A DNA stretch of 61,458 bases from positions 1 to 61,458 of the forward strand of contig JABSRB010000034.1 of the NCBI GenBank assembly GCA_013215375.1. The letters run 5' to 3'. Below the pieces are notes generated by a model. The model had not been told where the DNA came from. It did not search any database and saw only the letters and a program-made list of their open reading frames with translations. Shown piece by piece: positions 27,846-45,137 of this stretch. The DNA comes from Oceanospirillaceae bacterium. Lineage in GTDB: Bacteria > Pseudomonadota > Gammaproteobacteria > Pseudomonadales > Balneatricaceae. The translations under genes and the position numbers were made by a program. Position 1 is the first letter of the stretch. Every line of letters starts with the position of its first letter.

Positions 27846-28124
27846 TTAATGATAATCGGTTATTTCAACATCAAATGCATTGTTATCTTCCCATCGGAAA
27901 CATAAGCGCCATTGCTGATTGATGCGAATGCTGTGCTGCCCTTTTCTATTTCCTGATAATTGTTCTAGCCGATTCCCTGGCGGGCTTCTCAAAAAGTCGA
28001 TTGTTGCTGCCATATCAAGTAAGTGAAGCTTCCTTTCCGCTTGTCTTTGGAATGCTTTAAATTGACGTGGATTGCCCCCAGCAAAAAGTTGAGCTGTATT
28101 TTTATCGGAAAATGATTTAATCAT
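27846..28124 (-). CDS. higB: HigB-type RelE/ParE toxin
   Basis: 92 residues from the ATG at 28124 (MIKSFSDKNTAQLF). Contains LDMAATIDFLRSPPGNRLEQ and SIRINQQWRLCFRW, the HigB core with catalytic-type basic residues. The frame extends upstream without good support. First in a HigBA pair. Ribosome-dependent mRNA cleavage is expected. Confidence 0.9.
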   Translation of the reverse strand: MIKSFSDKNTAQLFAGGNPRQFKAFQRQAERKLHLLDMAATIDFLRSPPGNRLEQLSGNRKGQHSIRINQQWRLCFRWEDNNAFDVEITDYH

Positions 28125-28340
28125 AAAGGTATTATATAACGTCTTTCGTATAACGCAATGCGTATAGTCAGTCACTAGTTCAGCTATGAGCTAAAAATAT
28201 AAGTTATGGGTAAAAAAAGTTTCGGGTAGTTGGCTGTGAGTCAAAAGATTAGAAGTTAAAAAGGCAGTAACGTGCAAAAGGGTACAAATGAAATGCTAAG
28301 CCCGAAACCTGATACCTATTGAAATTATGGTGCTTTGTAT

Positions 28341-28680
28341 TTCCTCTGTGTAGCGTAGCGCCTCTGTGATCTCGGTGGTGGGAAAAGATTGTCTTAGATC
28401 AGTGGTCGTTAGTCGTTAGCTAAAAGATGAAGAATTAAAACATTAGTTTTACCACAGAGGGCTCGGAGGAGGGATTAAAAGCTAATAAGTCATTAGTCGT
28501 TAGTCGTTAGTTAAAAAATTAAGGGATAAAAAGACTAGTTTTACCACAGAGGTCACGGAGAGCACGGAGGAGGGATTAAAAGATTTAAATGAAAAGTGAC
28601 GAGTTGTGGGTTTCGAGTAGCGAGCTGTAAGCCAAATGATTTGAAACCTGAAACCTGAAACCTGAAACCTGAAACCTGGT
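28341..28680. repeat. CTCTGTG repeat with two right arms and a GAAACCT array
   Basis: Left arm CCTCTGTGTAGCGTAGCGCC (28344), right arms at 28443 (TTTTACCACAGAGGGCTCGG) and 28538 (TTTTACCACAGAGGTCACGG), with TTAGTCG heptamers between. Trailer GAGGAGGGATTAAAAGAT leads into five perfect GAAACCT units (28643-28677). The unit at 28640 shares text with 22970-22992, where there are only two. Confidence 0.7.
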
Positions 28681-28765
28681 TTATGTATATTGTATTTGTT
28701 ATAACAAAGAGTATAATTTTGTACATAATAAAGTACGTTTTTGTGTTGTATGTTGAGGTGAGTTT

Positions 28766-29053
28766 ATGTCTATTCAATTAATATTGGCTGAAAAAACAGT
28801 ATCAGTGACAGAGCTTAGAAAAAAGCCGTGTGATTACTTTTTAGATGAGCCGGTTGCGGTGCTGTCTAATAATAAAACAGCGGGCTATATGATAAGCGCC
28901 AAGCTTTACGAGCAAATGGTAGCGCTTATAGAGTCTCAATCTAAAACCTCCCGATTTAGACCTTCTCAAGCTCGGCTTGCTCAGATTTCTGCACATAGTA
29001 GCGCTAGTCTGCTTGCTACCTCAGATAAAGAGTTAGGCGATTTTTCAGAGTGA
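28766..29053 (+). CDS. yafN: YafN-like (Phd/YefM family) antitoxin
   Basis: 95 residues. ILAEKTVSVTELRKKPCDYF and PVAVLSNNKTAGYMISAKLY align by eye along most of E. coli YafN, as does RFRPSQARLAQI near the C-terminus. RBS TGAGGTGAG. Its last codons overlap the start of the truncated yafO (GTGA). Likely still able to bind DNA; its toxin partner is broken. Confidence 0.9.
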   Translation: MSIQLILAEKTVSVTELRKKPCDYFLDEPVAVLSNNKTAGYMISAKLYEQMVALIESQSKTSRFRPSQARLAQISAHSSASLLATSDKELGDFSE

Positions 29054-31737: not shown

Positions 31738-32089
31738 CTTTTTCAATACATTCCATCCAGATAAACATACAGTAAAACTGTTGCCTAAAAACAACATAAC
31801 TATCTGTAGTTATTAAAGATTTTGAAAAACCGATATGTTAATGTTTATCATTCAAAAGCTAAATGAGCGGTGTTTTATGTGCTCTTTGATATATAACGGT
31901 TTGTTTTGAAAATATTTTTATGAGACTTATACCTGGATTTAAATACCGCCCTCAAAGATATGGATAAGTCATCTCCTTATGTAGTTACGGCTTTCGAGAG
32001 TCCGCGTCCATAGAATTAGAAATGAGCTGACGATAAGTTAGTGCACAACATTGATAATACAAAAAGCCAATCAGGGAATGACTGCAAAG
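31738..32089. other. Intergenic region before the MazG-like gene
   Basis: AT-rich, with no supported gene or clear terminator. The promoter of the MazG-like gene should lie here. A TATAT-rich patch (31880-31920) is the best candidate region. Confidence 0.25.
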
Positions 32090-32440
32090 ATGGATGATTT
32101 CGAAGTTTTAAAGATAAAGCTAAAAAAGTTTGCCGATGATCGTGATTGGGATCAATTCCATTCGCCTAAAAACCTGTCGATGGCATTAAGTGTTGAAGCA
32201 TCTGAGCTGGTGGAGTGTTTTCAATGGCTCACTGAAAAAGAGTCACAAAACCTAACCTCAGAGCAATTATCAGCGGTGGTTGATGAAATTGCTGACGTAC
32301 AGGTTTATCTATTGCGTTTGGCAACCAAGCTGGATGTGAATATATTGGATGCTGTTGAGCAAAAGATGGTGAAGAATGCAGCTAAATATCCTGCTGATAA
32401 GGTGAGGGGGAGTGCTAAGAAATATGATCAGTATGAATGA
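32090..32440 (+). CDS. MazG-like nucleotide pyrophosphohydrolase
   Basis: 116 residues from the ATG at 32090. FADDRDWDQFHSPKNLSMAL, then EASELVECFQW and DEIADVQVYLLRLA give the EExxE...ExxD metal-binding pattern of the dimeric MazG/iMazG/RS21-C6 group, which hydrolyses dNTPs such as dCTP. Lies just upstream of the restriction locus but separated by about 100 bases of repeat, so co-transcription is possible, not certain. Such genes are common in defence islands. Confidence 0.87.
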   Translation: MDDFEVLKIKLKKFADDRDWDQFHSPKNLSMALSVEASELVECFQWLTEKESQNLTSEQLSAVVDEIADVQVYLLRLATKLDVNILDAVEQKMVKNAAKYPADKVRGSAKKYDQYE

Positions 32441-32542
32441 GAAAGTGCAGCTGGGAAGCTATGAGCTACAAGCTAGAAAGCAGTAATTGTCGATGGTGAA
32501 AAAGGTGGATGTCCCATACCTCCCCATACTTGAGGTTTGTTA

Positions 32543-33841
32543 ATGGAAATACAAATTGGTGATGTTTTAAGGTATAAAAAACCAGCGTGTCATAATAATC
32601 GGTATGAGGGTGGGTTCCTTAATTTTCATTTCATGATCCAAAAAACAGATATTAATCGGTTACAGTTGGAAAAAGGAATAAATCCAGCTGCTGCAATTAT
32701 GACAAGCGATTGTGGAAAAGTAAGACCTGCCATTTTGGTCTCCACAAGCCCTAACAAAAAAGGTACTGCTGAAACGCCTTGGCAGGATTATTATGATAGC
32801 GATAATGGCCATATTAGATACTTTGGTGATAATAAAGAGCCTAGCAAAGATCCTGCTCAAGCACCTGGAAATAAAGCGTTATTAGCGGCATTTCGGCTCG
32901 CACATTCACATGACCCATTAGAGCGATTACAAACACCACCTATATTGTTTTTTAAACGTGTAACCGTCGATGGTAAAGCAAAAGGTTTCCCAATGTTTCA
33001 AGGGCTAGGAGTTATCAATAGTATTGAGTTGGTATCCCAGTGGGACAATAAATTACAGCGCTCTTTTACCAACTATGCTTTTGATTTTACAGTATTGTGT
33101 ATGATGAAAGAGCACGACACCTTTGAGTGGGACTGGATTAATGCTCGTAGAGATAAGAACTTCTCAGTGCTTGACACAAACTTAAAGGCTCCCGCTAGTT
33201 GGAATCTTTGGCTAAAAGAAGGGGTTAATTCTTTAAGTAAAGCTCGACGACGAGTTTCAAAATTATTGGTTGTCAAAAGTGAAGAGCAAAAACCTCAACC
33301 TGGCTCTCTGCAGGAAATGCAGCTGCAAAGCATATACAGTTTCTATGATGGAAGAAAACATAAGTTCGAAGCATTGGCAGAATGGGTGGCGCAACGGGTT
33401 ATAGGAAAGGATATAGGGATCTATCAGCAAGGCTGGATAACACGTGGTTCTAGTGATGGCGGCGCTGATTTTATAGGAAAGGTAACTTTGGGCAGTGATT
33501 TCTCCAAAGTTGAATTAATTGTACTTGGACAAGCCAAATGTGAAGTTCTGACTAGTCCTACAGGCGGTAATCATATTGCCAGAACGGTTGCACGACTTAA
33601 AAGAGGTTGGATAGGTGCCTATGTGACTACTAGCTATTTTTCTGACGCAGTACAGCGAGAAATCATTGAAGATAAATACCCTATTATTCTAATCAACGGT
33701 AAAAGAATTGTAGAAGAGGTATCTAAGTTTTTGCATGAGAGCGAAGAATATCAAACAATAAATGAGTTTCTGGATTTTATGCTTAAGAGTTACCCAGAAA
33801 GGCTTAAACAACGTGAGCCTGAAGAGATACTTAATGCATAG
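32543..33841 (+). CDS. Restriction endonuclease with Mrr-type catalytic domain
   Basis: 432 residues from the ATG at 32543 (TGAGG upstream). The C-terminal domain (about 270-400) shows GGADFIGKV with D309 and, 21 residues on, LGQAKCE with Q330-x-K332, the Mrr/MspJI-like variant of PD-(D/E)xK. The N-terminal 250 residues (KVRPAILVSTSPNKKGTAE, GHIRYFGDNK, PMFQGLGVI) resemble the SRA-like DNA-binding half of AspBHI-type nucleases, by memory and with moderate confidence; those read 5-methylcytosine. Gene order with a cytosine methyltransferase directly downstream makes a restriction role very likely. AT-rich like the rest of this locus. Confidence 0.82.
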   Translation: MEIQIGDVLRYKKPACHNNRYEGGFLNFHFMIQKTDINRLQLEKGINPAAAIMTSDCGKVRPAILVSTSPNKKGTAETPWQDYYDSDNGHIRYFGDNKEPSKDPAQAPGNKALLAAFRLAHSHDPLERLQTPPILFFKRVTVDGKAKGFPMFQGLGVINSIELVSQWDNKLQRSFTNYAFDFTVLCMMKEHDTFEWDWINARRDKNFSVLDTNLKAPASWNLWLKEGVNSLSKARRRVSKLLVVKSEEQKPQPGSLQEMQLQSIYSFYDGRKHKFEALAEWVAQRVIGKDIGIYQQGWITRGSSDGGADFIGKVTLGSDFSKVELIVLGQAKCEVLTSPTGGNHIARTVARLKRGWIGAYVTTSYFSDAVQREIIEDKYPIILINGKRIVEEVSKFLHESEEYQTINEFLDFMLKSYPERLKQREPEEILNA

Positions 33842-33885
33842 TTTAAAAGGCAGTAAATGTTGTTCGCTCACTGAACAAAAAAATG

Positions 33886-33914
33886 TAGGTATATGCCGTA
33901 TCACCTATTATAAT
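33886..33914 (+). promoter_or_regulatory. Candidate promoter and operator before the methyltransferase
   Basis: A perfect -10 TATAAT (33909-33914) lies 33 bases before the methyltransferase ATG. Just upstream, inverted words TAGGT (33886) and ACCTA (33903) with 12 bases between cover the -35 position, where no good TTGACA is seen. This could be a regulated promoter allowing modification enzyme to be made apart from the nuclease. Confidence 0.45.
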
Positions 33915-33946
33915 TCGGTTAATTTTTTTTGGTCGTGTCGTTATTT

Positions 33947-35137
33947 ATGTATAAGCAACTTACTGCAATTGATCTGTTTTCTGGTGCTGGTGGATTTTCG
34001 CTAGCAGCGCACAATTGTGGACTAAAGGTGAAAGCCGCTATTGAATTTGATAAAGCAGCTGCATCAACTTATCAAGATAACTTAATTGATAAGTTAAAAA
34101 CACAAACGAAACTTATTGCTGGAGACATTAATCTAGTAAATATTGCTGATTTGATGTCAGAATTGGATCTTGGTCAAGGTGAACTGGATCTACTTCTTGG
34201 TGGTCCTCCTTGTCAGGGTTTTTCGTCGCACAGATTAAAAGGTTCGGGAATTGATGATCCACGTAATCAGCTTTTAATTAGATATTTTGATTTCGTTAAA
34301 GAGCTTCAGCCAAAGGCTTTTTTAATTGAAAACGTGTCGGGCCTACTATGGAAAAGGCATGAGGATTATCTAGATCAGTTTCTTGCATTAGCTAAAGAAA
34401 ATGATTATCAAGTTAAGTTTTGTAATACGTTGTTATCTAAAGATTACGGGGTTCCTCAAAATCGAAAACGTGTTTTTATTTATGGAGTTAGGAAGGATAT
34501 AGATAAAAAGGGAAAGTTTTTATTTCCACCAGATCCAACACATTTCAACCCGCAAAAAGGTATTCCTAGTTGGCCAACAAGCTCGACTGTTTTTGAAAAG
34601 CCAAGTCAATCAGTTTTACAGCAGTATGTTACTGAATACTATATGCCAGAGTTTGGAATAACAAAGAAAGAAGCTAAACAATTAGTTAAAAAATTGGTGT
34701 TCGGAAAAAAACTGCTCAAAAGAGACCCATGTAATTACCATATGCAACATACTGATTTACTGACAGAAAGGTTCAAGAGTACTAGACTTAATGGCAGCAG
34801 GCTAGATAGTGGGATCACGTTGGATTGCCATAAAACTCATGGTGGCCATAAAGATGTTTATGGTCGAATTATTCTCCACCTGCCTGGTAATACAATTACC
34901 ACTGGATGCAATAATCCTTCTAAAGGCCGTTTTGTTCATCCTTGGTTAGACCATGGCATGACATTAAGGCACGCCGCTAGATTCCAGACTTTTCCTGACT
35001 GGTTTGTGTTTAATGGCACTACAACTGAAAAAGCAAAACAAGTAGGTAATGCAGTGCCGATTTTATTAGGCGAAATATTGATTAACTCTATTAAACAAAA
35101 TATAGAAGCTGTTTTACAGTTAAAGGCTGCAATTTAA
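33947..35137 (+). CDS. DNA (cytosine-5-)-methyltransferase
   Basis: 396 residues from ATG 33947. Motif I DLFSGAGGFSLA (9-20), motif IV GGPPCQGFSSH with catalytic C89, motif VI FLIENVSGLL, motif VIII PQNRKRVFIYGV, and motif X KQVGNAVPILLGE are all in order, so an active enzyme is expected. The target-recognition region (about 200-320) is basic and unlike anything I can assign. Forms the modification half of the locus. Separated from the nuclease by 105 bases with its own candidate promoter. Confidence 0.93.
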   Translation: MYKQLTAIDLFSGAGGFSLAAHNCGLKVKAAIEFDKAAASTYQDNLIDKLKTQTKLIAGDINLVNIADLMSELDLGQGELDLLLGGPPCQGFSSHRLKGSGIDDPRNQLLIRYFDFVKELQPKAFLIENVSGLLWKRHEDYLDQFLALAKENDYQVKFCNTLLSKDYGVPQNRKRVFIYGVRKDIDKKGKFLFPPDPTHFNPQKGIPSWPTSSTVFEKPSQSVLQQYVTEYYMPEFGITKKEAKQLVKKLVFGKKLLKRDPCNYHMQHTDLLTERFKSTRLNGSRLDSGITLDCHKTHGGHKDVYGRIILHLPGNTITTGCNNPSKGRFVHPWLDHGMTLRHAARFQTFPDWFVFNGTTTEKAKQVGNAVPILLGEILINSIKQNIEAVLQLKAAI

Positions 35138-35164
35138 ATTATAGATAATAAGCTAGGAAAGAAA

Positions 35165-38143
35165 ATGTCATCAATATCTTTTCAAACGAAAGCACGAACA
35201 ATTGATCACTTGGGAAGGGAGCAAATTGCCGACTGTCCGACTGCTATATCTGAGTTATGGAAAAATTCATATGATGCATATGCTCGTCGTGCCGAACTAC
35301 ATCTATTTAATGATGATAAAAGTGTCGCTGCCATAGTTGATGATGGCCACGGCATGAACCATCATGACTTAATAACGAAGTGGCTGGTCATTGGGACTGA
35401 ATCTAAAGCATCAGGCGGAGAGATAGACTTAGACGATTTAGATGGTTTAAATGAAAGACCAAAACAAGGACAAAAAGGTATTGGTCGGCTATCTAGTGCT
35501 ATTCTTGGTTCGCTTCTATTACTCGTTTCAAAAAGAAAAAATTCAAAATTTGTGGCCGCTTTAATTGATTGGCGTTTGTTCGAAAATCCCTTCTTATACC
35601 TTGATGATCTTAAAATACCTGTTGAAGAATTTACAGACAAGAGAGATTTAATTGATTTGCTGCCAGTCATGTATGATGAGTTGATGTCCAATATTTGGGG
35701 CTCTCCTCTTGAAGAAGATAAAGAGAGAAGCGACCGAATCGAATTAGCTTGGCAGCAATACTCATTGGTAGAGCATCAATCATTTAAGCAGAAAAAATTA
35801 ACTGATGAGCTTACTACTAAAGAAAAAATAGAAAACACACTAATCTCATCAGTATACGAAGAGTATCATTTAGAAAAATGGCCTGTTTGGAATGGTTCTA
35901 GTGAAAAAGGAACTGCTCTATTTATATCTAATATTCATGATGATTTAAAAGCTCAATATGGCGATGAAGATGATCCGTTGGTAGCACGAGCGAAAGTGAA
36001 CTTTTTTTCTACACTAATCTCATTTACAGACCATGTTATTAAAAACAATCCAGTTGAATTTGACTACAAAGTGGTGCTGCATAAAGACTCATATAATAAT
36101 TCTCTTGTTTCACCTGATTTAGAATTTTCGCATGATGATTTTGAGAAAATGGAACACCGTGTTGTTGGCATAATTGATGATTCTGCTATTTTTAAAGGTC
36201 AAATTCATGCCTTCGGGCATGATCTCGGTGACGTAGTCATACCGTTACAGATAAAAATGCCTTTTCACCATTTAAGTAAAGTCGGACAAGTAAATATATT
36301 TTTAGCAAGTTATGAAGTAGAAAAAGGCAAGGGAGAATTAGGGGGAGTTAGAAGTTCTATGGAACCCGGTGTTTGGAACGATATCAATGAAAAAATGCGA
36401 CGATATAATGGGTTGAAAGTATACCGTGATGGATTACGTGTCATGCCTTATGGCAAACAAAGTAATGACTTTTTTGAAGTTGAAACTCGGCGCTCAAAGA
36501 ATGCTGGTGCGGCTCATTACTCTCTTCGTAACATGATAGGTGCGATCTCGCTAACGAAGAAATACAATTCAAATTTAAAAGATAAGGCAGGGCGAGAAGG
36601 TTTTATAGATAATAAAGCCTCTAAGGCGTTTAGGGATATAATTGAATTACTTTTAGTTGAAGTTGCAAATAGATATTTTGGTCGGAGTTCAAAGTCAATA
36701 CGTGGGACGTTTACAAAGCCACTTGAAGAAGATTATCAACAAAGAAAAGCAGCGCTAGATTTGAAGGAACAAAAAGCCAAAGATAAAAAAGCTTTTAACA
36801 ATAACTTAAAATCTTATGCACCAAAAGTAATTGAGTTGCTTACCCAAACAAAACTTTATCTATCAGAAGTTGAATCATTAGAAAAAAATTCCGAAAACAT
36901 ATTAAAACTACAAAAAAAAGCTGGAGATATTGGACAAAAAATATTAACAATAAAAATATCCAATGCGCCAAGAACACTAAAAGGAAATCAAGAAACCCTT
37001 TATCGCGAATATAAATCTAATCTTGCTTTTATCCAAAACACCTTAAAAGAAACGCAAACTTTTCTAAATAGCGAATTAGAACGGTTAAAACCTAAAGAAC
37101 CAGGCGAGCTTGCTTACTCTCAGTTACAAAGAAATGCTAAGTATATTCAAGATCAGTTAAGGGCATGGAAAGTTGAGGCCAGAGGTATTTTAAGTAAAGA
37201 ACAACAACGTATCGATGCCTTAATCGATGAGAAGAACAAGCAATATCATAAAATTGCGCAGCCATACATTGCTGAAGTTGAAAGTAATCGTATGTCTCTC
37301 GCGAAATGTTTAGAATTACTTGATCGCAAGAGGGAAGAGATACAGTTTGAAAATGAGCAAATTTTTTCGCCATATTTATCTACATTATCAAGTTTGAAAG
37401 AAAGTATAGATTTAGCAGGCCTTGCATATTTTTCAATCGATCAAGCTGATGAAATGCGAGAGGAGATCGACCGTTTAAATTCGTTGGCTCAACTTGGTAT
37501 TACAGTTGAAATCATAAGTCATGAATTACACCACATGCAGCATGATACCGAAATAGCTTTAGAAAAAGTTACTGACCAAATTAAAGATAAATCTACCACT
37601 GAAAACCTTGTCCGTACATATCGAGCCCTTAACGAAAAATTGAAATTTCTTTCTCCCTTGAAATTATCGGGTGAAGCTGAACGTGATTGGATTTCAGGTC
37701 ATGAGATAAAAGATTACATAGAAGAATTTTACGGTAATAGTATTAATGATATCAATTTAGAGTTTTCGTCCAAATTTTTAACCTTAAATGTGTATGATGA
37801 AAAATCAAGAATATTTCCAGTATTCATTAATTTAATTAACAATTCAAAATATTGGGTCAAACAAAAAGATAATAATGCCCAACAGATCTTACTTGATATT
37901 GTTAATGATAAAGTGGTTATTTCCGATGATGGAACTGGCGTACATGAAGACGATATCAAAAGCCTTTTTACTATATTTTTTACAAAAAAAGTCAGGGGAG
38001 GACGAGGGGTTGGCTTACATTTGTGTCGATCCAATTTAGCCGCCGCTGGGCATACTATTGAGTATGCGAAAGCCCCTGAGTACCAATTGTTAAATGGAGC
38101 TAATTTTGTCATTAATTTTAAAGGAGTTAAATATGACGGATAG
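35165..38143 (+). CDS. Dual-GHKL protein: Hsp90/MORC-like ATPase plus histidine-kinase-like module
   Basis: 992 residues. N-terminal GHKL domain: N-box ELWKNSYDA (E30, N34, D37), G1 DDGHGM (59-64), GQKGIGR lid (102-108), as in Hsp90/MutL/MORC ATPases. Residues about 150-500 form a transducer-like region, followed by long coiled coil (about 525-760). The C-terminus is a second GHKL unit of histidine-kinase type: H-box-like ISHELHH with H786, N-box FINLINNSKYW (888-898), G1 DDGTGV (921-926), F-box LFTIFFTKK and G2 GGRGVGLHL (945-953). No TM segment. Begins 27 bases after the methyltransferase and overlaps the receiver gene by 11. Two ATP sites in one chain, with a likely phosphoacceptor His, suggest a sensor kinase working for the restriction pair. 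Confidence 0.88.
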   Translation: MSSISFQTKARTIDHLGREQIADCPTAISELWKNSYDAYARRAELHLFNDDKSVAAIVDDGHGMNHHDLITKWLVIGTESKASGGEIDLDDLDGLNERPKQGQKGIGRLSSAILGSLLLLVSKRKNSKFVAALIDWRLFENPFLYLDDLKIPVEEFTDKRDLIDLLPVMYDELMSNIWGSPLEEDKERSDRIELAWQQYSLVEHQSFKQKKLTDELTTKEKIENTLISSVYEEYHLEKWPVWNGSSEKGTALFISNIHDDLKAQYGDEDDPLVARAKVNFFSTLISFTDHVIKNNPVEFDYKVVLHKDSYNNSLVSPDLEFSHDDFEKMEHRVVGIIDDSAIFKGQIHAFGHDLGDVVIPLQIKMPFHHLSKVGQVNIFLASYEVEKGKGELGGVRSSMEPGVWNDINEKMRRYNGLKVYRDGLRVMPYGKQSNDFFEVETRRSKNAGAAHYSLRNMIGAISLTKKYNSNLKDKAGREGFIDNKASKAFRDIIELLLVEVANRYFGRSSKSIRGTFTKPLEEDYQQRKAALDLKEQKAKDKKAFNNNLKSYAPKVIELLTQTKLYLSEVESLEKNSENILKLQKKAGDIGQKILTIKISNAPRTLKGNQETLYREYKSNLAFIQNTLKETQTFLNSELERLKPKEPGELAYSQLQRNAKYIQDQLRAWKVEARGILSKEQQRIDALIDEKNKQYHKIAQPYIAEVESNRMSLAKCLELLDRKREEIQFENEQIFSPYLSTLSSLKESIDLAGLAYFSIDQADEMREEIDRLNSLAQLGITVEIISHELHHMQHDTEIALEKVTDQIKDKSTTENLVRTYRALNEKLKFLSPLKLSGEAERDWISGHEIKDYIEEFYGNSINDINLEFSSKFLTLNVYDEKSRIFPVFINLINNSKYWVKQKDNNAQQILLDIVNDKVVISDDGTGVHEDDIKSLFTIFFTKKVRGGRGVGLHLCRSNLAAAGHTIEYAKAPEYQLLNGANFVINFKGVKYDG

Positions 38144-39854
38144 ACGAGAATTAATAAAAAAAGTCTACATTGATCCTATTCGTTCAGTATTAGCTATTGA
38201 TGATGAATTTACATCTTTGGATAACTACATTGCAGGTCAAGTCAAAGCTCCAAGCGGAATTCAAAAAGACATGCTCGCCAACTTTAGACAGAAAAAATGG
38301 CTAGTAGATATGAACGATGGAAGTGGAGGCAGCTCAGATTCAATATCACACTTGCATCAATGTGATTTGTTGGTTGTAGATTATCACCTTAATCGAGCTG
38401 ATGAGACAGATAATTCACAGTCACTGGATATAATAAAGCAGCTAGATAAAAACGAGCATTTCAATCTAGTTGTTGTTTACACTAGCGCAACCCCTAAAGA
38501 GGTTCAAACAACACTTGCAGAAATATTGAGCCCATCTAAACATGCCTTCGGGGATTTTGACTACTCTCAAGTTACTCAACAATTGGAACAATGGGAAGAG
38601 GCTACTGGTGAACAAGTAATCGATGAATTAATCGGTTGTTTAAGTGCTGGTGATTTTCGTAAGTTATACTCGCGCCCAGAGCTTATTGACACTGAATTAA
38701 TAGTTATGTTTTCTCCACTTGAAATATATCTGAATCAAAATGAATTCACCAGTTACGAAAATAAAGAAATACTTAAATTCATTTTTACTAAAAAAATGGA
38801 AAATCTAGTAGCACAAGGGCTTTTTCAAGGTAGTTCTGCTGTTTGGACAAGCGACGGTGATGAATATTTTTCGGTAAAAACATCTCAAATGTTCGTAACA
38901 GTCATATCCAAAGATATTACACCAGATCTTATTCCGTCGACCCTGTTAAGTGCACTTGAAAATTGGTATCCAACCTCAAACCGACTTTTATTAGCAAAAA
39001 TCCGAGCAGAACTCGAGGCTAATGGCGTTTTATTCGAAGAGCAAATTTTAGACTGCAAGTATACAAATGCAGGTTGGTTACAGCAATTTATTGATGATAA
39101 AATTGACGGAACCTCACTTACAATCACCAGACTTTTTGAAGTCATGTCGAAAAGTGTGCAAGAAAAAATTCGAGAGTATGCCGATAATTTGAAAGAGAAT
39201 ATTTTGATTGAAGGCTATAAAAACTCTGTTGTTTTGGAAGCTAAGTTTGATCCGGAAATCTCTGAACATAAAGTTAAGGTGAATAAACATTTAAACGCCT
39301 ATATCTGCTCGAAACCAGTGTCCGGTACACACATTGAAACTGGACACATATTAAAATGGGAAAATAGTGGTGATGTAGAATATTTATTATGTCTAACACC
39401 TATCTGCGATTTAGTTCCTGGCCGTGAAAAGGGATGGAGTAAAAAACTTACACCAATTATGCCCATAAAAGTATTAAAACTACACCAATCACTAAAAAAT
39501 GATGCGAATCAATTAAAAGAGATTGAAAAGAAAGGACACATTGTTTTTATAGATGGCACTGATATTAAATTGTTGGCAGTAACTCCTACAGGAAGTTCAA
39601 GTACAGCCATGGAAATTGAGCAGGTTTTTGTATCTGAACAAGGACGATTTATTGTTGATACTGATAAAAACTTAATTTGTGAACTTCAAAGAATCGTTTA
39701 TGAAAGTCCAGAGAAATCAGATAAAGGATTACATTATGAGACTGAAAATTGCAAAGTCGTTGGGCAATTAAGATATGAGTATGCTTTAAACTTGTTAAGC
39801 CAGCTGGGAGTTGATTTAACTCGAATTGGTTTGGATTTTGTTAAGTTAGCATAA
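38133..39854 (+). CDS. Atypical response-receiver protein of the restriction locus
   Basis: 573 residues; ATG at 38133 behind AAAGGAG, overlapping the kinase-like gene, so coupled. The receiver fold is at the N-terminus: acidic pair VLAIDDEF (D23, D24), phosphoacceptor LLVVDYHL (D83) and Thr/Ser VVVYTSAT (T117), with an unusually long stretch of about 55 residues between the first two. The remaining 450 residues have no DNA-binding or enzymatic motif I can name; a conserved-looking LLCLTPICDLVPG stands near 440-452. Role inferred as phospho-acceptor partner of the adjacent dual-GHKL protein, possibly contacting the nuclease. Confidence 0.82.
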   Translation: MTDRRELIKKVYIDPIRSVLAIDDEFTSLDNYIAGQVKAPSGIQKDMLANFRQKKWLVDMNDGSGGSSDSISHLHQCDLLVVDYHLNRADETDNSQSLDIIKQLDKNEHFNLVVVYTSATPKEVQTTLAEILSPSKHAFGDFDYSQVTQQLEQWEEATGEQVIDELIGCLSAGDFRKLYSRPELIDTELIVMFSPLEIYLNQNEFTSYENKEILKFIFTKKMENLVAQGLFQGSSAVWTSDGDEYFSVKTSQMFVTVISKDITPDLIPSTLLSALENWYPTSNRLLLAKIRAELEANGVLFEEQILDCKYTNAGWLQQFIDDKIDGTSLTITRLFEVMSKSVQEKIREYADNLKENILIEGYKNSVVLEAKFDPEISEHKVKVNKHLNAYICSKPVSGTHIETGHILKWENSGDVEYLLCLTPICDLVPGREKGWSKKLTPIMPIKVLKLHQSLKNDANQLKEIEKKGHIVFIDGTDIKLLAVTPTGSSSTAMEIEQVFVSEQGRFIVDTDKNLICELQRIVYESPEKSDKGLHYETENCKVVGQLRYEYALNLLSQLGVDLTRIGLDFVKLA

Positions 39855-40300
39855 AGTGACAATATGACAGTGCGCCGAGCCAAAGCGGTAGAAGACAGGG
39901 GCCGGGGGTCAGGTCTTTTCTTTTGCCTAGGGCTATGTTCGGGGAGTTTGTTGAAACGCGATACATAGCATATCCCTCATGAAATTTTCAGAACAATATG
40001 GGACAGTCACATTTTCTCACTGCCATATTACTAATAAACCAGCTGGAATTACTAGTGTTGATGATTACTGAAGATAAAAGTATCGCAGTACAAGATGACT
40101 TATTACGCAGCCCCCCCTTGTATTGTCGCCAGTGCGATTACTAAATTGATGAGTGGAGCGACAGTATTTAAATATTTACCAGCTGGAATTACTGGGTCAG
40201 TAAAATATCACAGTAGTGTAACCTAGTTACGAAGCTGCCAATTCCCTCTAGGTAAATATGAATTAATTGATTCTAACTAAGTATAAATAATCAGAGATAG

Positions 40301-40426
40301 ATGTTAAATATAAAAGAAACTGATAAGGCCTTGAAAAAGCTTAATTCTTCAATTTTAGCTGACCGTAAATACACTACTTGTTTATCCTATTGGAGTCGTT
40401 TTATAAGGCAAAGGGATGGAAAATAA
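40301..40426 (+). pseudogene. Possible 5' remnant of an HNH/NinG-like nuclease gene
   Basis: 41 codons; the end CLSYWSRFIRQRDGK resembles the segment just before the zinc Cys pair of HNH proteins of NinG type (W-S-x-F-I-R-x-R-D). Reading stops where an AATATGGGACAG repeat begins, so the repeat seems to have cut the gene. Could also be a chance frame. Confidence 0.35.
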
Positions 40427-40611
40427 TATGGGACAGGCTCTTTTAATCACTGCTATTTTCATGTGATCCAGCGGATAATGCTGATATGTAGCAAAGAAAT
40501 ATGGGACAGGCTGTGTTAATTACTGCTAATTACATATAAGTCAGATGAAATTACTAGATTCATTAATTAATTTAGAAAAATGCTTCGCTGTACCAAAATC
40601 CTAGCTACGAA

Positions 40612-40770
40612 GCCACCATCCCCCCTTTGGTATTGTCGCCGGAGTGATTGACTAAATTGATGAGTGGAGCGACAGGCCGTCGCGAAAAGCGAAGTTGAGC
40701 CATGGATGGCGAATCTGAGCGGCCGTCAATTTAGTCTATCACGTAGGAGTTTTTCGACAATATGGGGCGA
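40612..40770. repeat. Hairpin intergenic element
   Basis: TATTGTCG...GTGATTGACTAAATTGA pairs with the complement of TCAATTTAGTCTATCAC...CGACAATA, enclosing GCGAAGTTGAGCCATGGATG. Followed by TTTGGTTCGGTTTC and a segment (40797-40860) that is repeated before the decayed higA copy at 45.6 kb. Confidence 0.6.
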
Positions 40771-40919: not shown

Positions 40920-41237
40920 CTATGCCGCATTCAAAACCGTAGCCTTCTCAAGCTTATCCAGTAACACCTCATTATGCTGTGTATTCCAAAGATTATTTAG
41001 GGTTTGTAAATTAATCCAAAACTCAGGTGTAGTGCTAAGTACCTTAGCAAGTATCAAGGCTGTTTCTACGGTGATAGCACGTTTGTTATTACATAGTTCA
41101 TTTACTGTTTTACGTCCAACCCCCATCGCAGTTGCGAGATTGCCTTGGGTGATATCCAAAGGCTCTAGAAATTCTAGAGTAAGCATTTCACCAATACTGG
41201 TGGGTTGATGTGCAGGTAAACGTAGAGTAGAAGTCAT
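40920..41237 (-). CDS. higA: HigA family antitoxin
   Basis: 105 residues: PAHQPTSIGEMLTLEFLEPL, helix-turn-helix TQGNLATAMGVGRKTVNELC and RAITVETALILAKVL. Follows higB by 11 bases. Two decayed copies of this same gene exist at about 45.7 and 53.8 kb. Expected to neutralise HigB and repress the operon. Confidence 0.92.
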   Translation of the reverse strand: MTSTLRLPAHQPTSIGEMLTLEFLEPLDITQGNLATAMGVGRKTVNELCNNKRAITVETALILAKVLSTTPEFWINLQTLNNLWNTQHNEVLLDKLEKATVLNAA

Positions 41238-41248
41238 AAATCACCTCG

Positions 41249-41536
41249 TTAGTACTTATGGGGATCTAAATAAAGCTCTATTGCTTTACCACTATCCCAC
41301 TTAAATATTAGTCTATATTGTTTGTTGACACGAATAGAGCACCAATGTGCCAGCTTTCCGGTTAAATGCTCAAACCTGTTCCCTGGTGGCGACCTAAGAT
41401 CACATTCAGCGCTGGCAACATGAATGAGATCAAGCTTGCGCTGCAAGCTGCTTTCTAGCGTTGACGGTATTAGCCGATGCTTAGTGCCTTGCCAATAATA
41501 ATCAGCCAGCCATTTATCTTTAAAAGATTCGATCAT
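41249..41536 (-). CDS. higB: HigB-type RelE/ParE toxin
   Basis: 95 residues: MIESFKDKWLADYYWQGTKH, then LHVASAECDLRSPPGNRFEH-like text (LIHVASAECDLRSPPGNRFE) and SIRVNKQYRLIFKW. Complete HigB length. Differs clearly from the HigB at 27846, so the two pairs are not a recent duplication. Confidence 0.92.
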   Translation of the reverse strand: MIESFKDKWLADYYWQGTKHRLIPSTLESSLQRKLDLIHVASAECDLRSPPGNRFEHLTGKLAHWCSIRVNKQYRLIFKWDSGKAIELYLDPHKY

Positions 41537-41618
41537 GCATAAATTGTAGCCTGTATCGATACAGGGTGCAATTTCTGTTATTGCGGAGAAAATTATGGAT
41601 TGGAATAGCTAGTTAGTA

Positions 41619-41657
41619 ACTAATACAATGTGTTAGTATCTAATACATTGTATTAGT
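41619..41657. promoter_or_regulatory. Operator palindrome of the RelE/NadS pair
   Basis: ACTAATACAATG (41619-41630) and its exact complement CATTGTATTAGT (41646-41657), with further TTAGTA/TAATAC half sites between and just upstream, 12 bases before the toxin ATG. Strong candidate binding site for the NadS-like antitoxin. Confidence 0.7.
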
Positions 41658-41668
41658 TTGGAGCGTTC

Positions 41669-42007
41669 ATGAATCTTGTTTTCAAAGAGACTGATATATT
41701 TACTAAACTTATTACTCAGCTGTTATCTGATGATGAGTATAAAGAGCTTCAAGAGCATTTGATTGAAAGACCTGATGTGGGTGCTGTGATTGAAGGCACA
41801 GGCGGTCTTAGGAAAGTGCGATGGGCAGCGAAAGGTGGTGGTAAAAGTGGCGGGGTTCGAATTATCTATTATTGGATAACCGAAGATCACCAAATTTACA
41901 TGCTGCTCGCTTATCCCAAAAGTAAACAAGATAATTTAACCGCCACTCAGAAGAAAGTGTTGAAAGCGTTAGTGCACAGAGAATTACAGGAGAAAGACAA
42001 TGGATGA
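41669..42007 (+). CDS. RelE/HigB2-like toxin
   Basis: 112 residues. RPDVGAVIEGTGGLRKVRWA, then GGGKSGGVRIIYYWI and YMLLAYPKSKQDNLT give the core of the RelE-like toxins that precede NadS antitoxins. RBS TTTGGAG. Overlaps the antitoxin gene by eight bases. Confidence 0.9.
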   Translation: MNLVFKETDIFTKLITQLLSDDEYKELQEHLIERPDVGAVIEGTGGLRKVRWAAKGGGKSGGVRIIYYWITEDHQIYMLLAYPKSKQDNLTATQKKVLKALVHRELQEKDNG

Positions 42008-42299
42008 TAATTTATTTGATCAACTGGTTAGCAGTGTTGAGCACGCAGGTGCTATTCGCCGCGAAGAAAAAGTCGCTTCTCGTGAATTTGAATACTGTGC
42101 TGTCGATGTTAAAGCAATTCGCGAAGCGACTGGTAGGACTCAAGAATCTTTTGCACAGATGATAGGTGCATCGGTATCAGCCGTTCGCAGCTGGGAGCAA
42201 GGTAAGCGTCACCCAGTAGGACCTGCACGAGTGCTTTTAGCAATGTTTAATGCCGATCCTAAAGCGGCTGATGAACTGCTTCACAGGGCTGCAGGGTAA
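42000..42299 (+). CDS. NadS-like XRE antitoxin
   Basis: 99 residues: helical N-terminus, then helix-turn-helix RTQESFAQMIGASVSAVRSW and EQGKRHPVGPARVLL. Typical partner of the preceding RelE-like toxin; probable repressor acting at the palindrome upstream. Confidence 0.9.
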   Translation: MDDNLFDQLVSSVEHAGAIRREEKVASREFEYCAVDVKAIREATGRTQESFAQMIGASVSAVRSWEQGKRHPVGPARVLLAMFNADPKAADELLHRAAG

Positions 42300-42396
42300 G
42301 ATTTAGCGCAGCGGAGGTAAGCTCTTCTGCAGGACTGGAAAATATGGGTCAGGCTCTTCGGTAAAAATGAAAAAGCTAAGAACTATAGAGGCGAGA

Positions 42397-42681
42397 ATGA
42401 GTAATTTCTTTGAAAGTATTAAGCAGGGCCTAACTGAAGCAGTAGATTACAGTGAAGGTAACGTTAAGCATGCCACAGTTCATAAATTTGATCCTGTTGA
42501 TGTCAAAGCAATACGATCAAATGTACATATGACACAAAGAGAATTTGCTGCAAATTTTGGTATTAGTTTAGGTACACTTCGACACTGGGAGCGTGGTGAT
42601 AGGACGCCTAGAGGGCCTGCTTTAGTTTTACTGACAGTGCTATCTAAAAATCCAAGTGCTGTTATTCAAGCTTTAGCGTAA
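42397..42681 (+). CDS. Orphan NadS-like XRE antitoxin
   Basis: 94 residues from ATG 42397 (GAGGCGAG upstream; frame opens at 42367). MSNFFESIKQGLTEAVDYSE, then helix-turn-helix MTQREFAANFGISLGTLRHW and ERGDRTPRGPALVLL. No toxin gene precedes it; the region upstream has a short AATATGGGTCAG repeat. It may be the remnant of a pair or a solitary regulator able to cross-talk with the adjacent RelE/NadS pair. Confidence 0.85.
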   Translation: MSNFFESIKQGLTEAVDYSEGNVKHATVHKFDPVDVKAIRSNVHMTQREFAANFGISLGTLRHWERGDRTPRGPALVLLTVLSKNPSAVIQALA

Positions 42682-43095
42682 ACAAAAAAATCAAAGATAT
42701 TTTAAATTATTTTATGGATGAAGTTCTTTTAACCTCTGCTGTATGCGGATAGCCTAGTAGGTATTTCTGGAGCAAAATATGGGCTATTTTCATCACTGCC
42801 ATATCGCTAATAAACCAGCTGGAATTACTAGTGATTATGATTGCTGTAGATAAAAGCATCGACGTAAAAAAGCCTAGCTATCGGCACAGACTTTATGCTC
42901 CCGGCAAAGTCTAAGTACCTACATCCCTGTCGGCAAAGCAGCGCAGTGAAGAGTTACCTTCAAACCCTAACTTTGGCTAAGGTGGCGTTGTTAAGTCTGC
43001 TAGACTAAGGAGCAGTTATGCTCGCGAAGCATTGACAAGAATTTATTATTTAATTCGACACTCATTTAACTCCATTGAAGTAAGACAACTTAACT
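42682..43095. other. Repeat-rich gap in the toxin-antitoxin island
   Basis: Contains an 85-base copy of the AATATGGGACAG repeat (42773-42860, with ACTGCCATATCGCTAATAAA and CCAGCTGGAATTACTAGTG) and a GGCAAAGTCTAAGTACCTAC...CCCTGTCGGCA segment (42902-42935) related to the repeats at 43.5 kb. No gene seen. Confidence 0.5.
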
Positions 43096-43416
43096 ATGAA
43101 AGCATATAGCAGCATTGAAGAACGAATCCAAATTTTAGAAGATCAAGTTTTGTTACTAAATGAAGAAATTGAGGTGCTAAAAACACCTCCTACCAGTGAC
43201 AATGAAAGAATTGTTTTAAAGTATATTGAAACAGGCAGTACGGGTAAAACGAAAGATTTTGTGCGCGGATTAGGTATTAAGTCAGTGCGTGGACTGTTTT
43301 CATCAGGTGACGTGAGCAGATTACTTAAAGAGGGAGCTGACGACATATCGCCTGCACTATTAGTGATCGCTATTAAGTTGGCTAATGGAAACAATAAAAA
43401 TGGACCAAGTCGATAA
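43096..43416 (+). CDS. Small coiled-coil hypothetical protein
   Basis: 106 residues. The N-terminal 30 residues form a clear coiled coil (IEERIQILEDQVLLLNEEIE). The rest (TGKTKDFVRGLGIKSVRGLF, DVSRLLKEGADDISPALLVI) looks like a small helical DNA- or protein-binding domain. Not recognised. Position between antitoxins and HipBA suggests another accessory cassette. Real by length and codon pattern; function unknown. Confidence 0.55.
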   Translation: MKAYSSIEERIQILEDQVLLLNEEIEVLKTPPTSDNERIVLKYIETGSTGKTKDFVRGLGIKSVRGLFSSGDVSRLLKEGADDISPALLVIAIKLANGNNKNGPSR

Positions 43417-43496
43417 GCGGACAGTTTTAGGAAGAGCGTATATGTACAGGATGTACGGTATAACGCGGTGACATGGCAGAATTTTGTTCCCGACAA

Positions 43497-43700
43497 ATTC
43501 TAAGTACCTGCATCCCTGCAGGCACAGACTTTTTGCTCCTGCAAATTCTAAGTACCTGCATCCCTGCAGGCAATGGCAAAAATCCTCTTTGGTTCGGTTT
43601 CTTTTTGCCTACAGGGATTGTAGGTAAGGGGCGTGAGCAGGACGCGGAAGCTTTGCCTACAGGGATTGTAGGTAAGGGGCGTGAGCGGGAAGTGCGACCC
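43497..43700. repeat. Palindromic direct repeats (TACCTGCATCCCTGCAGGCA / TGCCTACAGGGATTGTAGGT)
   Basis: TTCTAAGTACCTGCATCCCT occurs twice (43498 and 43546), each followed by GCAGGCA. Then GCCTACAGGGATTGTAGGTA plus AGGGGCGTGAGC occurs twice (43607 and 43662) in inverted sense. Between them lies TCTTTGGTTCGGTTTC. Probably a REP-like palindromic cluster; the open frame across it is not a gene. Confidence 0.7.
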
Positions 43701-43892
43701 GGACCGGTCTGGTTTAGAGGTTGTGTCGCTACTCAGGTTAACGAAAAGTATGGGACAGCCTCTTTATATCACAGTTAAATCTTCCCCCCTGTTGAAGCAT
43801 CCTCGAGTGATCAGTTCTTCTATCATCGCAACCGGGTGATGTTGGCCTTTGCCACTTGGATTGAAATCTGCAGTGGATCATCGAATCTAGCC

Positions 43893-45137
43893 TTATATTA
43901 TTTTATTTAACAGCATTAATTTTTGCTCTACTGTTTTAATGATGGTTTTACTGCTGCTGGAAGATACGCCAGTATTCTTTAATATCTCATGGAAATTTTG
44001 CATATTATCCATCAGATTTTGAGCAATGGGTCTGATGTTATTCGGCTTAATGCCGGCTTGTTTAGCCATTAACTCCAGTGACTTTTTACTGGGTGCTTCG
44101 CCTTCTCCGGCAAATGAGGTCATATGTTCTCGATAGGGAGAAGGTGAGTAAAGCACATCGTAAAAAGGGGATAAGCGCCAGTTGTTTTGGTCGTCACATA
44201 GGAAGGCGAAGTTTTTAGCATGATCATCTTGATTGCAAATCAAAAAGTTGAAAAGCGCTCTGCTAATCATTTTTTTGGCTTCATTAACACCGCACATCAT
44301 ACGCGTGGCCTTGATGAGGTCTATATAGTCCAGAGATGGCTCACGATAGGATGCATCAAGCAGGCCGCTTGCCGAAATCATATGTAGGCGGCCATTATTG
44401 CCAACACAATCAAATCTATCTTGCCTTAACCAAAATCTATCCTCTGCGACTTTGAGTAAATCAAAGTTAGCCGTATCTATGTTGCATTGCCTAGCAAGTG
44501 TCATACAACAGTACTCAACTAAACTTTCTTGGTGGGCGAGGTCGAATTTTTCTGAGGTGAGCTTAATTATGCTCGGCGTTCCGCTTATGTATCTGTTGGT
44601 GCTATAAGTACCGTCGGCTAAAAGAGTGACATTCAGCTTTGGTCTGGCGCCTCCCGATCCCGCTGTATTCATTAAACTGTCAATCAGTTGGCTTTCTGTA
44701 CCTTCAAATTCGTCGACTGCCTGCTTGCCCAGCTCTTGAATAGAGTGGCTTAGTGAGGGGGCTGTGGAAAAGGCCGTGCAGGGTTCATAATATAATGCGC
44801 CTAAGCAATTATCACCAATGAAAGCGAGACGCTCAAGCTGGGTGATAGTACTTGGATTTACGTCGTTTTTTCTAAAGACCTTATCCATTAGATAAAGTCC
44901 CCAGCCGTCAGGAAGGCTATCCGCAAATACACCTTGAAGCCTTTTATGCGGTGTTTGTGGGCCGAGCTGGGCTTGTGCGGACTCCTCTAGAGCAAAAGGG
45001 GAAATATTGCCATATTGATTTAAGTATTGCTCATTGTATTGAAAGTATATGCCACTTTTGTTTTCTGCAAGCTCACCTACTTTAATGGTATTACCATTAG
45101 CGAGCTTTCTTTTAACAACAAGTTTATGATCGAGCAT
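43893..45137 (-). CDS. hipA: HipA family serine/threonine kinase toxin
   Basis: 414 residues. N-terminal couple_hipA part (GNISPFALEESAQAQ), P-loop-like GSGGARPKLNV, catalytic CNQDDHAKNFAF and metal-binding LSPFYDVLYSP. Complete for the family. Expected to phosphorylate a tRNA synthetase or similar target and slow growth. Overlaps hipB by 14 bases; both read from a strong palindromic promoter region. Confidence 0.9.
   Translation of the reverse strand: MLDHKLVVKRKLANGNTIKVGELAENKSGIYFQYNEQYLNQYGNISPFALEESAQAQLGPQTPHKRLQGVFADSLPDGWGLYLMDKVFRKNDVNPSTITQLERLAFIGDNCLGALYYEPCTAFSTAPSLSHSIQELGKQAVDEFEGTESQLIDSLMNTAGSGGARPKLNVTLLADGTYSTNRYISGTPSIIKLTSEKFDLAHQESLVEYCCMTLARQCNIDTANFDLLKVAEDRFWLRQDRFDCVGNNGRLHMISASGLLDASYREPSLDYIDLIKATRMMCGVNEAKKMISRALFNFLICNQDDHAKNFAFLCDDQNNWRLSPFYDVLYSPSPYREHMTSFAGEGEAPSKKSLELMAKQAGIKPNNIRPIAQNLMDNMQNFHEILKNTGVSSSSSKTIIKTVEQKLMLLNKII

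Follow-up and report, generated by a model that had tools for sequence, protein, structure and literature searches.

The locus at positions 32537 to 39854 of the window (the whole stretch of 61,458 nucleotides analysed here, from an Oceanospirillaceae bacterium) contains a conserved unit of three genes, which encode a C5-cytosine methyltransferase, a GHKL/kinase protein and a receiver protein, together with the gene of an optional nuclease. We consider the chance about even (roughly 0.5) that this locus is a mobile defence module in which the conserved triad and an accessory nuclease form complementary layers, rather than a cognate restriction-modification pair. The genes and the features within them are as follows.

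32537..33841, + strand: MspJI-family nuclease ORF, 434 aa
32654-33223, + strand: RE_AspBHI_N (SRA-like recognition domain), Pfam
33428-33715, + strand: Mrr_cat nuclease domain, Pfam
33929..35137, + strand: C5-cytosine DNA methyltransferase ORF, 402 aa; starts at TTG; ATG at 33947 is a possible later start
35165..38143, + strand: MORC/MutL-like ATPase and histidine-kinase protein ORF, 992 aa
35240-35572, + strand: HATPase_c_3, Pfam, 67.6 bits
37490-37663, + strand: HEF_HK, Pfam, 27.7 bits; H786 codon at 37520-37522
37808-38113, + strand: HATPase_c, Pfam, 43 bits
38133 (ATG)..39854, + strand: receiver protein ORF, 573 aa
38379-38381, + strand: acceptor D83, from the 82-sequence receiver alignment
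38910-38912, + strand: K260, after an insertion of ~130 aa, from the same alignment and the AlphaFold2 model

The four genes are co-directional, with successive gaps of 87, 27 and -11 nt in the window; that is, the kinase and receiver ORFs share 11 nt. The first-pass annotation had described four genes on one strand, the last two overlapping, in an AT-rich segment. All of this was borne out: the ORFs lie intact on the + strand, their Pfam domains exceed the curated cut-offs, and the GC content is 35.9% over the locus against 41.6% and 40.6% in the 10-kb flanks and 42.2% in the window. The promoter scan (24 matches against 30.9 in shuffled sequences) and the terminator scan (4 against 5.3) were not richer than shuffles, and it is therefore the gaps and the overlap that suggest an operon. 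A repeat artefact was rejected, the direct-repeat families being short and scattered (among the 20 of 53 families listed). Genes of toxin-antitoxin type flank the locus on both sides; apart from these, scanning ten further large ORFs from the window revealed no convincing defence gene.

In the 992-residue protein, HATPase_c_3, HEF_HK and HATPase_c each scored above their own Pfam cut-off, and a long helical middle part lies between the N-terminal ATPase and HEF_HK. With the AlphaFold2 model (pLDDT 82.5), Foldseek matched the ATPase half to MORC2 (5e-9), MORC3, MutL (1nhh) and Hsp90, and the kinase half to the kinase cores of CpxA, ZraS and YycG. In the model, a MORC/MutL-like ATPase is thus joined in one protein to the core of a histidine kinase, in agreement with the earlier reading of two ATPases in one chain. 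All 86 aligned kinases retain the N-terminal ATP motifs and H786 (one kinase alignment consisted of the window protein and 52 of 83 relatives), and H786 was thus the right histidine to single out.

The receiver protein matched PF19192 (Response_reg_2) with 48.3 bits, over the curated cut-off. It was aligned with 81 of 82 relatives; L104, with a kinase identical to the L091 one, was left out. D83 and K260 are invariant in all 82 receivers, which identifies D83 as the right acceptor, as had been proposed, and the acidic pair D23, D24 and T117 occur in at least 90% of them. The AlphaFold2 model (pLDDT 88) found only receiver-like folds in Foldseek, and the C-terminal output region (residues ~264-573) had no match by fold or profile search. 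A known nuclease hidden in the C-terminus was rejected on this ground; the region might conceivably be a new nuclease fold.

The methyltransferase matched PF00145 (2e-62) and also TIGR00675. It is complete, as first described: the PPCQ motif with Cys95, ENV and GNAVP are all intact, and all 82 aligned methyltransferases share the catalytic Cys95.

The nuclease belongs to the MspJI family. Residues 4-433 of its 434 match the PADLOC model mREase_II (PDLC03206, 2.8e-150), the MspJI structure 4f0p is matched over the whole length (E=3.9e-88), and D311-Q332-K334 align with D334-Q355-K357 of MspJI, so that the D-Q-K site is kept. The SRA-like plus Mrr_cat architecture is that of MspJI, AspBHI and LpnPI. 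The name "Mrr-type nuclease", given at first, therefore fits the catalytic domain but not the whole protein. From family membership, cleavage is predicted to depend on 5mC (5hmC). The proposed restriction-modification pair is not supported, since this nuclease family cuts methylated DNA and MspJI-type genes accompany only 4 of 80 triad loci, outside the conserved unit; a conventional type II pair is likewise rejected by the predicted modification dependence. According to the available text of PMC3874153, the gene of MspJI itself adjoins a cytosine methyltransferase, as in the window, but that enzyme is thought inactive, whereas the methyltransferase here looks intact and is accompanied by a kinase and a receiver. 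No match was obtained in viral contigs scanned with the nuclease pattern; phage records gave one divergent MspJI-family match and two partial kinase matches.

To define the conserved unit, we used the best 80 of 116 relatives, found by a genome scan with two short conserved peptides; divergent triads such as L016 were therefore likely missed. Among these 80 loci, 79 have a receiver ORF directly beside the kinase gene. A C5-methyltransferase was counted as adjacent at up to 400 nt upstream or 600 nt downstream; 72 loci have one, 56 of them upstream and 16 downstream. All six viral-contig copies have methyltransferase, kinase and receiver. The conserved unit is thus these three genes, with the nuclease optional; of the four-gene co-occurrence that the first-pass annotation had named as a check, the methyltransferase and the receiver stood, and the nuclease did not. 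Some triads are located in prophages. Of five loci whose neighbours were scanned, two (L091, L069) have a tail-protein gene next to the triad, and in one (L103) the triad is flanked by a replication-nicking protein and the portal; no match came from the other two (L102, L094).

Other neighbours were considered when they recurred in at least two loci, and some of these were profiled. Vsr neighbours occur in 31 of the best 80 loci, 62 of the 80 have none of four recognised nuclease clusters, and 38 have neither Vsr nor these clusters within four genes. Neighbour counts are lowered by shortened flanks in 28 of the 80 loci; in 16, one flank of the kinase is below 3 kb. The "HNH_2" neighbours reach at most 9 of the 80 loci by a single-linkage BLAST cluster; a direct search started from one of its members gave 6, including two that are visibly dissimilar.

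The four MspJI-type cases among the best 80 of 116 differ in arrangement. L019 is a near-identical copy from the window's own lineage, the only one with the nuclease directly beside the triad and in the same orientation; L067 and L076 have it adjacent but on the other strand, and in L040 it lies ~9 kb away. In L076 the nuclease accompanies kinase and receiver, and the locus yielded no C5-methyltransferase. MspJI-family genes are rare: in three samples, of 369, 398 and 385 genomes, the family cut-off was exceeded in 2, 3 and 3 genomes, respectively (the own genome is counted in the samples of 369 and 398). The three MspJI-type loci besides the own one compare with an expected 0.0016-0.0017 (P 6e-10 to 9e-10), a value that overstates the link because its background is whole genomes and not other defence loci. 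In a quick kinase tree these three fall in branches separate from the window's. A link between an MspJI-type nuclease and a missing methyltransferase is not claimed: the methyltransferase is missing in 2 of the 4 MspJI-type loci against 8 of the best 80 overall (P=0.048), and a methyltransferase-like remnant adjoins the kinase in one of those two.

A second kind of modification-dependent nuclease recurs beside triads. In E. coli SE15 (record NC_013654.1), a complete triad is followed by a predicted phosphorothioate-dependent nuclease (NF045808, 436 bits), and 205 of 5426 E. coli genomes cover this 7.2-kb stretch to 80% or more. A relative adjoins the Kuenenia triad L096.

Much of the triad is already in print, and the earlier remark that no characterised system with this set is known is not supported. 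The available text of PMC8011034 (Bellieny-Rabelo, Pretorius and Moleleki, 2021) describes the HEF_HK/Response_reg_2 pair (PF19191/PF19192), with 91.6% linkage in 644 regions, receiver loop extensions and a conserved Lys. Its group 1 has the same order of HATPase_c_3, HEF_HK and HATPase_c, with an adjacent Response_reg_2 protein, an upstream C5-methylase and surroundings rich in restriction-modification genes. The window receiver fits the Response_reg_2 features (acceptor Asp, acidic pair, Thr and Lys). The terms MspJI, AspBHI, Mrr and "modification-dependent" are absent from the main text of that paper, and the unmatched output fold and the count of triads without a nuclease were not seen in its available text; the ~130-aa size of the insertion before the Lys comes from our alignment and model. 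Added here are the conservation counts of H786, D83 and K260, the fused-fold model, the unmatched output, the prophage triads and the E. coli nuclease pairing. We found no phage or biochemical test of the HEF_HK/Response_reg_2 triad in the literature.

Other systems resemble parts of the locus. The paraMORC/MORC ATPases (Iyer, Abhiman and Aravind, 2008; available text of PMC2292703) share the N-terminal GHKL ATPase of MORC/MutL-like fold and restriction-modification neighbourhoods with C5-methylase and Vsr. However, the window protein carries a second, histidine-kinase ATPase with an H-box, and its partner is a receiver, a word absent from that text. MZA and DISARM are likewise ATPase-based defence modules, and a C5-methyltransferase and an MspJI-family nuclease occur in the same loci as MzaB (L013) and DrmB (L108). 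The window nuclease, kinase and receiver gave no match to Mza or Drm models at E<=0.1, the matches of the methyltransferase include DrmMII (among the 25 of 63 listed), and neither the DISARM DrmA/DrmB core nor MzaB, Z1 and AIPR were found in five locus proteins and ten further window ORFs. Literature searches found no paper joining MspJI with DISARM or Z1, or two-component systems with anti-phage action; for MspJI together with receiver, kinase and anti-phage action, the one paper found was a review that mentions neither "receiver domain" nor "histidine kinase".

Our favoured reading draws on the conserved triad, the invariant H786, D83, K260 and Cys, the MORC-like and kinase-like halves, the phage context, and the optional nuclease with its second, phosphorothioate-dependent type. 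The C5-methyltransferase would mark resident DNA. The MORC/MutL-like half, probably a dimeric DNA clamp, would report DNA without the mark, or foreign in some other way, leading to autophosphorylation of H786; the phosphate would pass to D83, and the novel output region of the receiver would then act. The MspJI-family nuclease would cut 5mC in sequence contexts other than those methylated by the resident enzyme, and would cover phages or plasmids arriving with foreign 5mC (or 5hmC). The two 5mC enzymes are compatible only if their specificities do not overlap, and sequence context may provide this. The 38 of the best 80 loci with neither Vsr nor a recognised nuclease, and the unmatched output, count against this reading, as does the result that ten further large window ORFs, toxin-antitoxin genes aside, gave no convincing defence gene; L076 fits poorly with a nuclease complementary to a resident mark.

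The nuclease may instead be a stand-alone type IV-like enzyme that came to lie, in a region of mobile and toxin-antitoxin genes, next to a triad with which it has no functional link. The flanking toxin-antitoxin genes are consistent with this, as are the unconserved position and strand of the nuclease and its occurrence elsewhere: MspJI-family genes lie beside MZA-type genes in L013 (by PADLOC), L109 (by annotation) and L110 (by resemblance), beside a DISARM DrmB-like gene in L108, and, in L009, L014 and others, with no such gene nearby. However, so rare a family would then have come to three triad loci outside the window lineage, on separate kinase branches, and we regard mere neighbourhood as rather unlikely. 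The first-pass annotation had proposed that a His-Asp relay gates the nuclease. Phosphotransfer from H786 to D83 would release or activate the nuclease on infection and leave it harmless until needed in a 5mC-marked cell, which would solve the 5mC paradox. The invariance of H786 and D83, the gene order with its short gaps, and the recurrence of two unrelated kinds of modification-dependent nuclease speak for it. The gating part fared less well than the relay residues: no MspJI-type nuclease was seen in 76 of the best 80 of 116 loci (28 of the 80 with shortened flanks), L067 and L076 carry it on the opposite strand, only the window lineage has it next to the triad in the same orientation, and purified MspJI cuts in vitro (available texts of PMC3874153 and PMC12707154). 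Relay gating is thus unlikely, and marginally more doubtful still is its wider form, in which a MORC-type clamp-kinase reads DNA methylation and the phosphorylated receiver, through its new output fold, switches on interchangeable modification-dependent nucleases.

It is also very improbable, in our estimation, that the methyltransferase methylates invading DNA on infection and the neighbouring 5mC nuclease destroys it. Of 15 independently sampled loci, 9 do have a C5-methyltransferase no more than ~9 kb from the MspJI-family gene, and 6 have one no more than ~1.5 kb away, whereas phosphorothioate nucleases are reported near dnd modification genes in <3.6% of cases (available text of PMC7461809). 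The 15 include L126 and L127, both without C5-methyltransferase, and L015, a 96-aa fragment; of 11 plasmid matches, H4 was left out, its row agreeing almost exactly with that of H3, as were one divergent phage record and the alphaproteobacterial L120 and L121, below the family cut-off. However, three of the 15 are related Priestia plasmids, the methyltransferase adjacent to MspJI is thought inactive, and the host's own DNA would escape marking only if the methyltransferase were silent before infection.

We know of no two-component-type control of a restriction nuclease, and none was found in the literature. If relay control were true, it would be the first known of this type, and one cell could then hold both an enzyme that makes 5mC and one that cuts DNA carrying it. 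The locus exposes a neglected puzzle, namely that a nuclease predicted to need 5mC has as its neighbour a 5mC methyltransferase that looks intact. The unit seems to be the triad, in many loci with no recognised nuclease beside it, and the effector may therefore be the new output region of the receiver. With the E. coli SE15 triad and its predicted phosphorothioate-dependent nuclease, a stretch common to 205 E. coli genomes, as a laboratory entry point, the HEF_HK/Response_reg_2 family passes from a bioinformatic family to a testable system.

The four open reading frames claimed by the first-pass annotation were found intact at their position in the window. These genes and their neighbours are listed below.

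27846, HigB-like gene
28766, Phd/YefM-like antitoxin gene (score below its cut-off)
32051-32440, + strand, gene for a MazG-like nucleotide pyrophosphohydrolase, ending 96 nt before the nuclease
32537-33841, + strand, nuclease
33929-35137, + strand, C5-methyltransferase
35165-38143, + strand, 992-residue kinase
38133-39854, + strand, receiver protein
40920, HTH antitoxin-like gene
41249, HigB-like gene
43893, HipA gene

The receiver ATG lies at 38133 and the kinase ends at 38143, so that the two genes overlap by 11 nt; the gaps are 87 nt between nuclease and methyltransferase and 27 nt between methyltransferase and kinase. The segment is AT-rich, as had been noticed (GC 35.9% across the locus vs 42.2% in the window). 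Toxin-antitoxin type genes flank both sides (27846-29053 and 40920-45137). Past the receiver gene, at 40111-40675, there are short direct repeats, one of 63 nt (75%) and one of 25 nt (100%, spacing 511 nt), which are possibly mobile-element remnants. Ten other large ORFs gave PADLOC matches that were partial, low-scoring or confined to general domains; the small-part mad3 matches of two adjoining ORFs at 49710-53254 (593 and 588 aa; 2.6e-24 and 8.4e-21) possibly reflect merely a shared domain.

The assembly (96 contigs, 5.0 Mb, 95% complete) contains one match each for the receiver and the MspJI-type domain. A 6.8-kb contig of the Colwellia sp. ALOHA_DT_125 MAG, L019, is 99.8% identical to the window along its full length and also carries the MazG-like gene. 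Its kinase gene (L019:3463-6451) is split in two frames, by either assembly error or real variation; in the window the frame is single and open.

We scanned genome_contigs with a six-kinase alignment, which gave 116 relatives, and the best 80 were kept. Among these 80, the receiver abuts the kinase in 79, the exception being a 3.6-kb contig (L080), and a C5-methyltransferase is adjacent to the kinase in 72 (56 upstream, 16 downstream). All six viral-contig copies also have methyltransferase, kinase and receiver. That is, the conserved unit is this triad. The co-occurrence of four genes proposed earlier therefore held for these three and not for the nuclease: one of MspJI type is present in 4 of the best 80. 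In 31 of the best 80 a Vsr repair endonuclease is encoded no more than four genes away, and four recognised nuclease clusters (HNH_2, MspJI, NOV_C, HNH_5-like) together account for 18; neither was seen in 38, where other nucleases may hide, because neighbours found in one locus only were left unprofiled. No nuclease is annotated alongside the Pseudoalteromonas and Pantoea plasmid triads, and Vsr is the sole annotated nuclease neighbour of a Rhizobium plasmid triad.

As for the nuclease itself, its domains are RE_AspBHI_N (5.6e-31) and Mrr_cat (4.6e-6), PADLOC methyl-directed mREase_II covers almost all of it, and the MspJI structure 4f0p aligns with nearly its full length (3.9e-88), followed by AspBHI and LpnPI with partial alignments. 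In the 4f0p alignment D311, Q332 and K334 correspond to MspJI D334, Q355 and K357, which we take to be the catalytic residues. A PD-QxK site is a feature of the MspJI family according to a passage of PMC12707154, and cleavage near 5mC is a property of its enzymes according to part of PMC3874153. By sequence, then, the nuclease belongs to a modification-dependent family. The locus was first read as a restriction-modification pair, but since this family cuts near 5mC, it would by family not combine a modification-blocked enzyme with a protecting methyltransferase. The methyltransferase is complete, as claimed: all checked motifs are present, PPCQ and ENV are common to 82/82 aligned sequences, and the METHYLTRANSFERASE appears to be active. 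The gene of MspJI likewise adjoins a cytosine methyltransferase, but that one is thought to be inactive (PMC3874153).

All 86 aligned kinase sequences retain H786 as well as the ATPase motifs of the N-terminus. The kinase model (53 sequences; pLDDT 82.5, pTM 0.63) matched MORC2, MORC3, MutL and Hsp90, and also the kinase cores of CpxA, ZraS and YycG, in Foldseek. Going by the Pfam map and by how long the alignments are, we placed the MORC, MutL and Hsp90 matches in the N-terminal half and the kinase-core matches in the C-terminal part; the predicted folds agree with the two ATPase types noted earlier. The ATPase half would be the sensor. In the receiver model (82 sequences; pLDDT 88), D83 sits where beta-3 ends; K260 lies just past a strand (253-259) that comes after an insertion, mostly helical, of about 130 residues. 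The Foldseek hits were receivers or folds resembling them (3h5i at probability 1.00), none with an E-value below 0.001; residues ~264-573 gave no credible match against PDB and viral models, nor a match in a profile search. The first-pass annotation knew of no characterised system with this set, but the kinase/receiver pair has been published (Bellieny-Rabelo and colleagues 2021, PMC8011034), in a paper whose main text does not contain MspJI, AspBHI, Mrr or 'modification-dependent'.

The four of the best 80 with an MspJI-type nuclease are as follows.

L019, same lineage as the window
L076, Brevundimonas, opposite strand, 46% identity to the nuclease of the window; the locus yielded no C5-methyltransferase
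L067, Dadabacteria bin, opposite strand, 31% identity over part
L040, Phyllobacterium, ~9 kb away, 44% identity over the part available

In a quick FastTree kinase tree the window pairs with L020 only, and L076, L067 and L040 are mutually separate inside one large clade. Three such loci besides the window's own copy far exceed the expectation from genome-wide family rarity (P 6e-10 to 9e-10, best 80 of 116 relatives), although the true significance is smaller because defence genes cluster. A serious rival is that nuclease and triad are mere neighbours. The triad kinase was seen in none of 15 MspJI-family loci sampled irrespective of triads (10 plasmids, 5 genomes). In these 15, a C5-methyltransferase lies within ~9 kb in 9 and within ~1.5 kb in 6. 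MzaB (PADLOC) neighbours the nuclease gene in L013, and Z1/ATPase gene sets lie near it in L109 (annotation) and L110 (ORF resemblance). In L108:5506-10716 a C5-methyltransferase is directly followed by the nuclease, with Vsr and a DISARM DrmB-like protein nearby. L015:8904-13926 has a different dual-HATPase protein (740 aa), an adjoining 370-aa protein that is receiver-like by eye and lacks a Pfam match, Vsr, a C5-methyltransferase and a 96-aa nuclease fragment; it is possibly a parallel version of the theme. Cleavage gated by phosphotransfer from H786 to D83 is attractive, because it would explain how a 5mC-dependent nuclease stands beside an intact-looking 5mC methyltransferase, but as a general rule it is opposed by the optional presence of the nuclease and its varying strand.

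A complete triad occurs in E. coli SE15, where the three proteins are 56%, 41% and 29% identical to those of the window. Next to it comes a member of the phosphorothioated-DNA-binding restriction family (436 bits), a predicted second type of modification-dependent partner. This 7.2-kb stretch is at least 80% covered in 205/5426 E. coli genomes. According to passages of PMC7461809, the SBD-HNH enzyme EcoWI depends on phosphorothioate in vitro and in vivo acts in restriction of modified plasmids, and fewer than 3.6% of phosphorothioate-dependent nucleases lie near dnd genes. The MspJI-family genes sampled here differ in this respect, with their frequent C5-methyltransferase neighbours. In E. coli O8:H28 (L116:6804-11586), kinase and receiver lie beside ssrA with an IS3 element upstream; the kinase is shortened (about 570 aa), and no methyltransferase is among the annotated genes. 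Among 25 rows taken across the 774 E. coli genomes that matched, 18 cover the same part of the query.

We found no functional test of the triad in the literature. Contextual evidence suggests a role in defence, namely the methyltransferase partner and the patchy spread across several phyla. Phage neighbours were seen in three of five scanned loci (a tail protein in L091 and L069; L103 between a replication-nicking protein and a portal), with no phage match in L102 and L094, and an integrase-type cluster lies near 9 of the best 80 of 116 relatives. The most economical reading takes the triad as the system, to which the nuclease would add an optional layer with complementary specificity.
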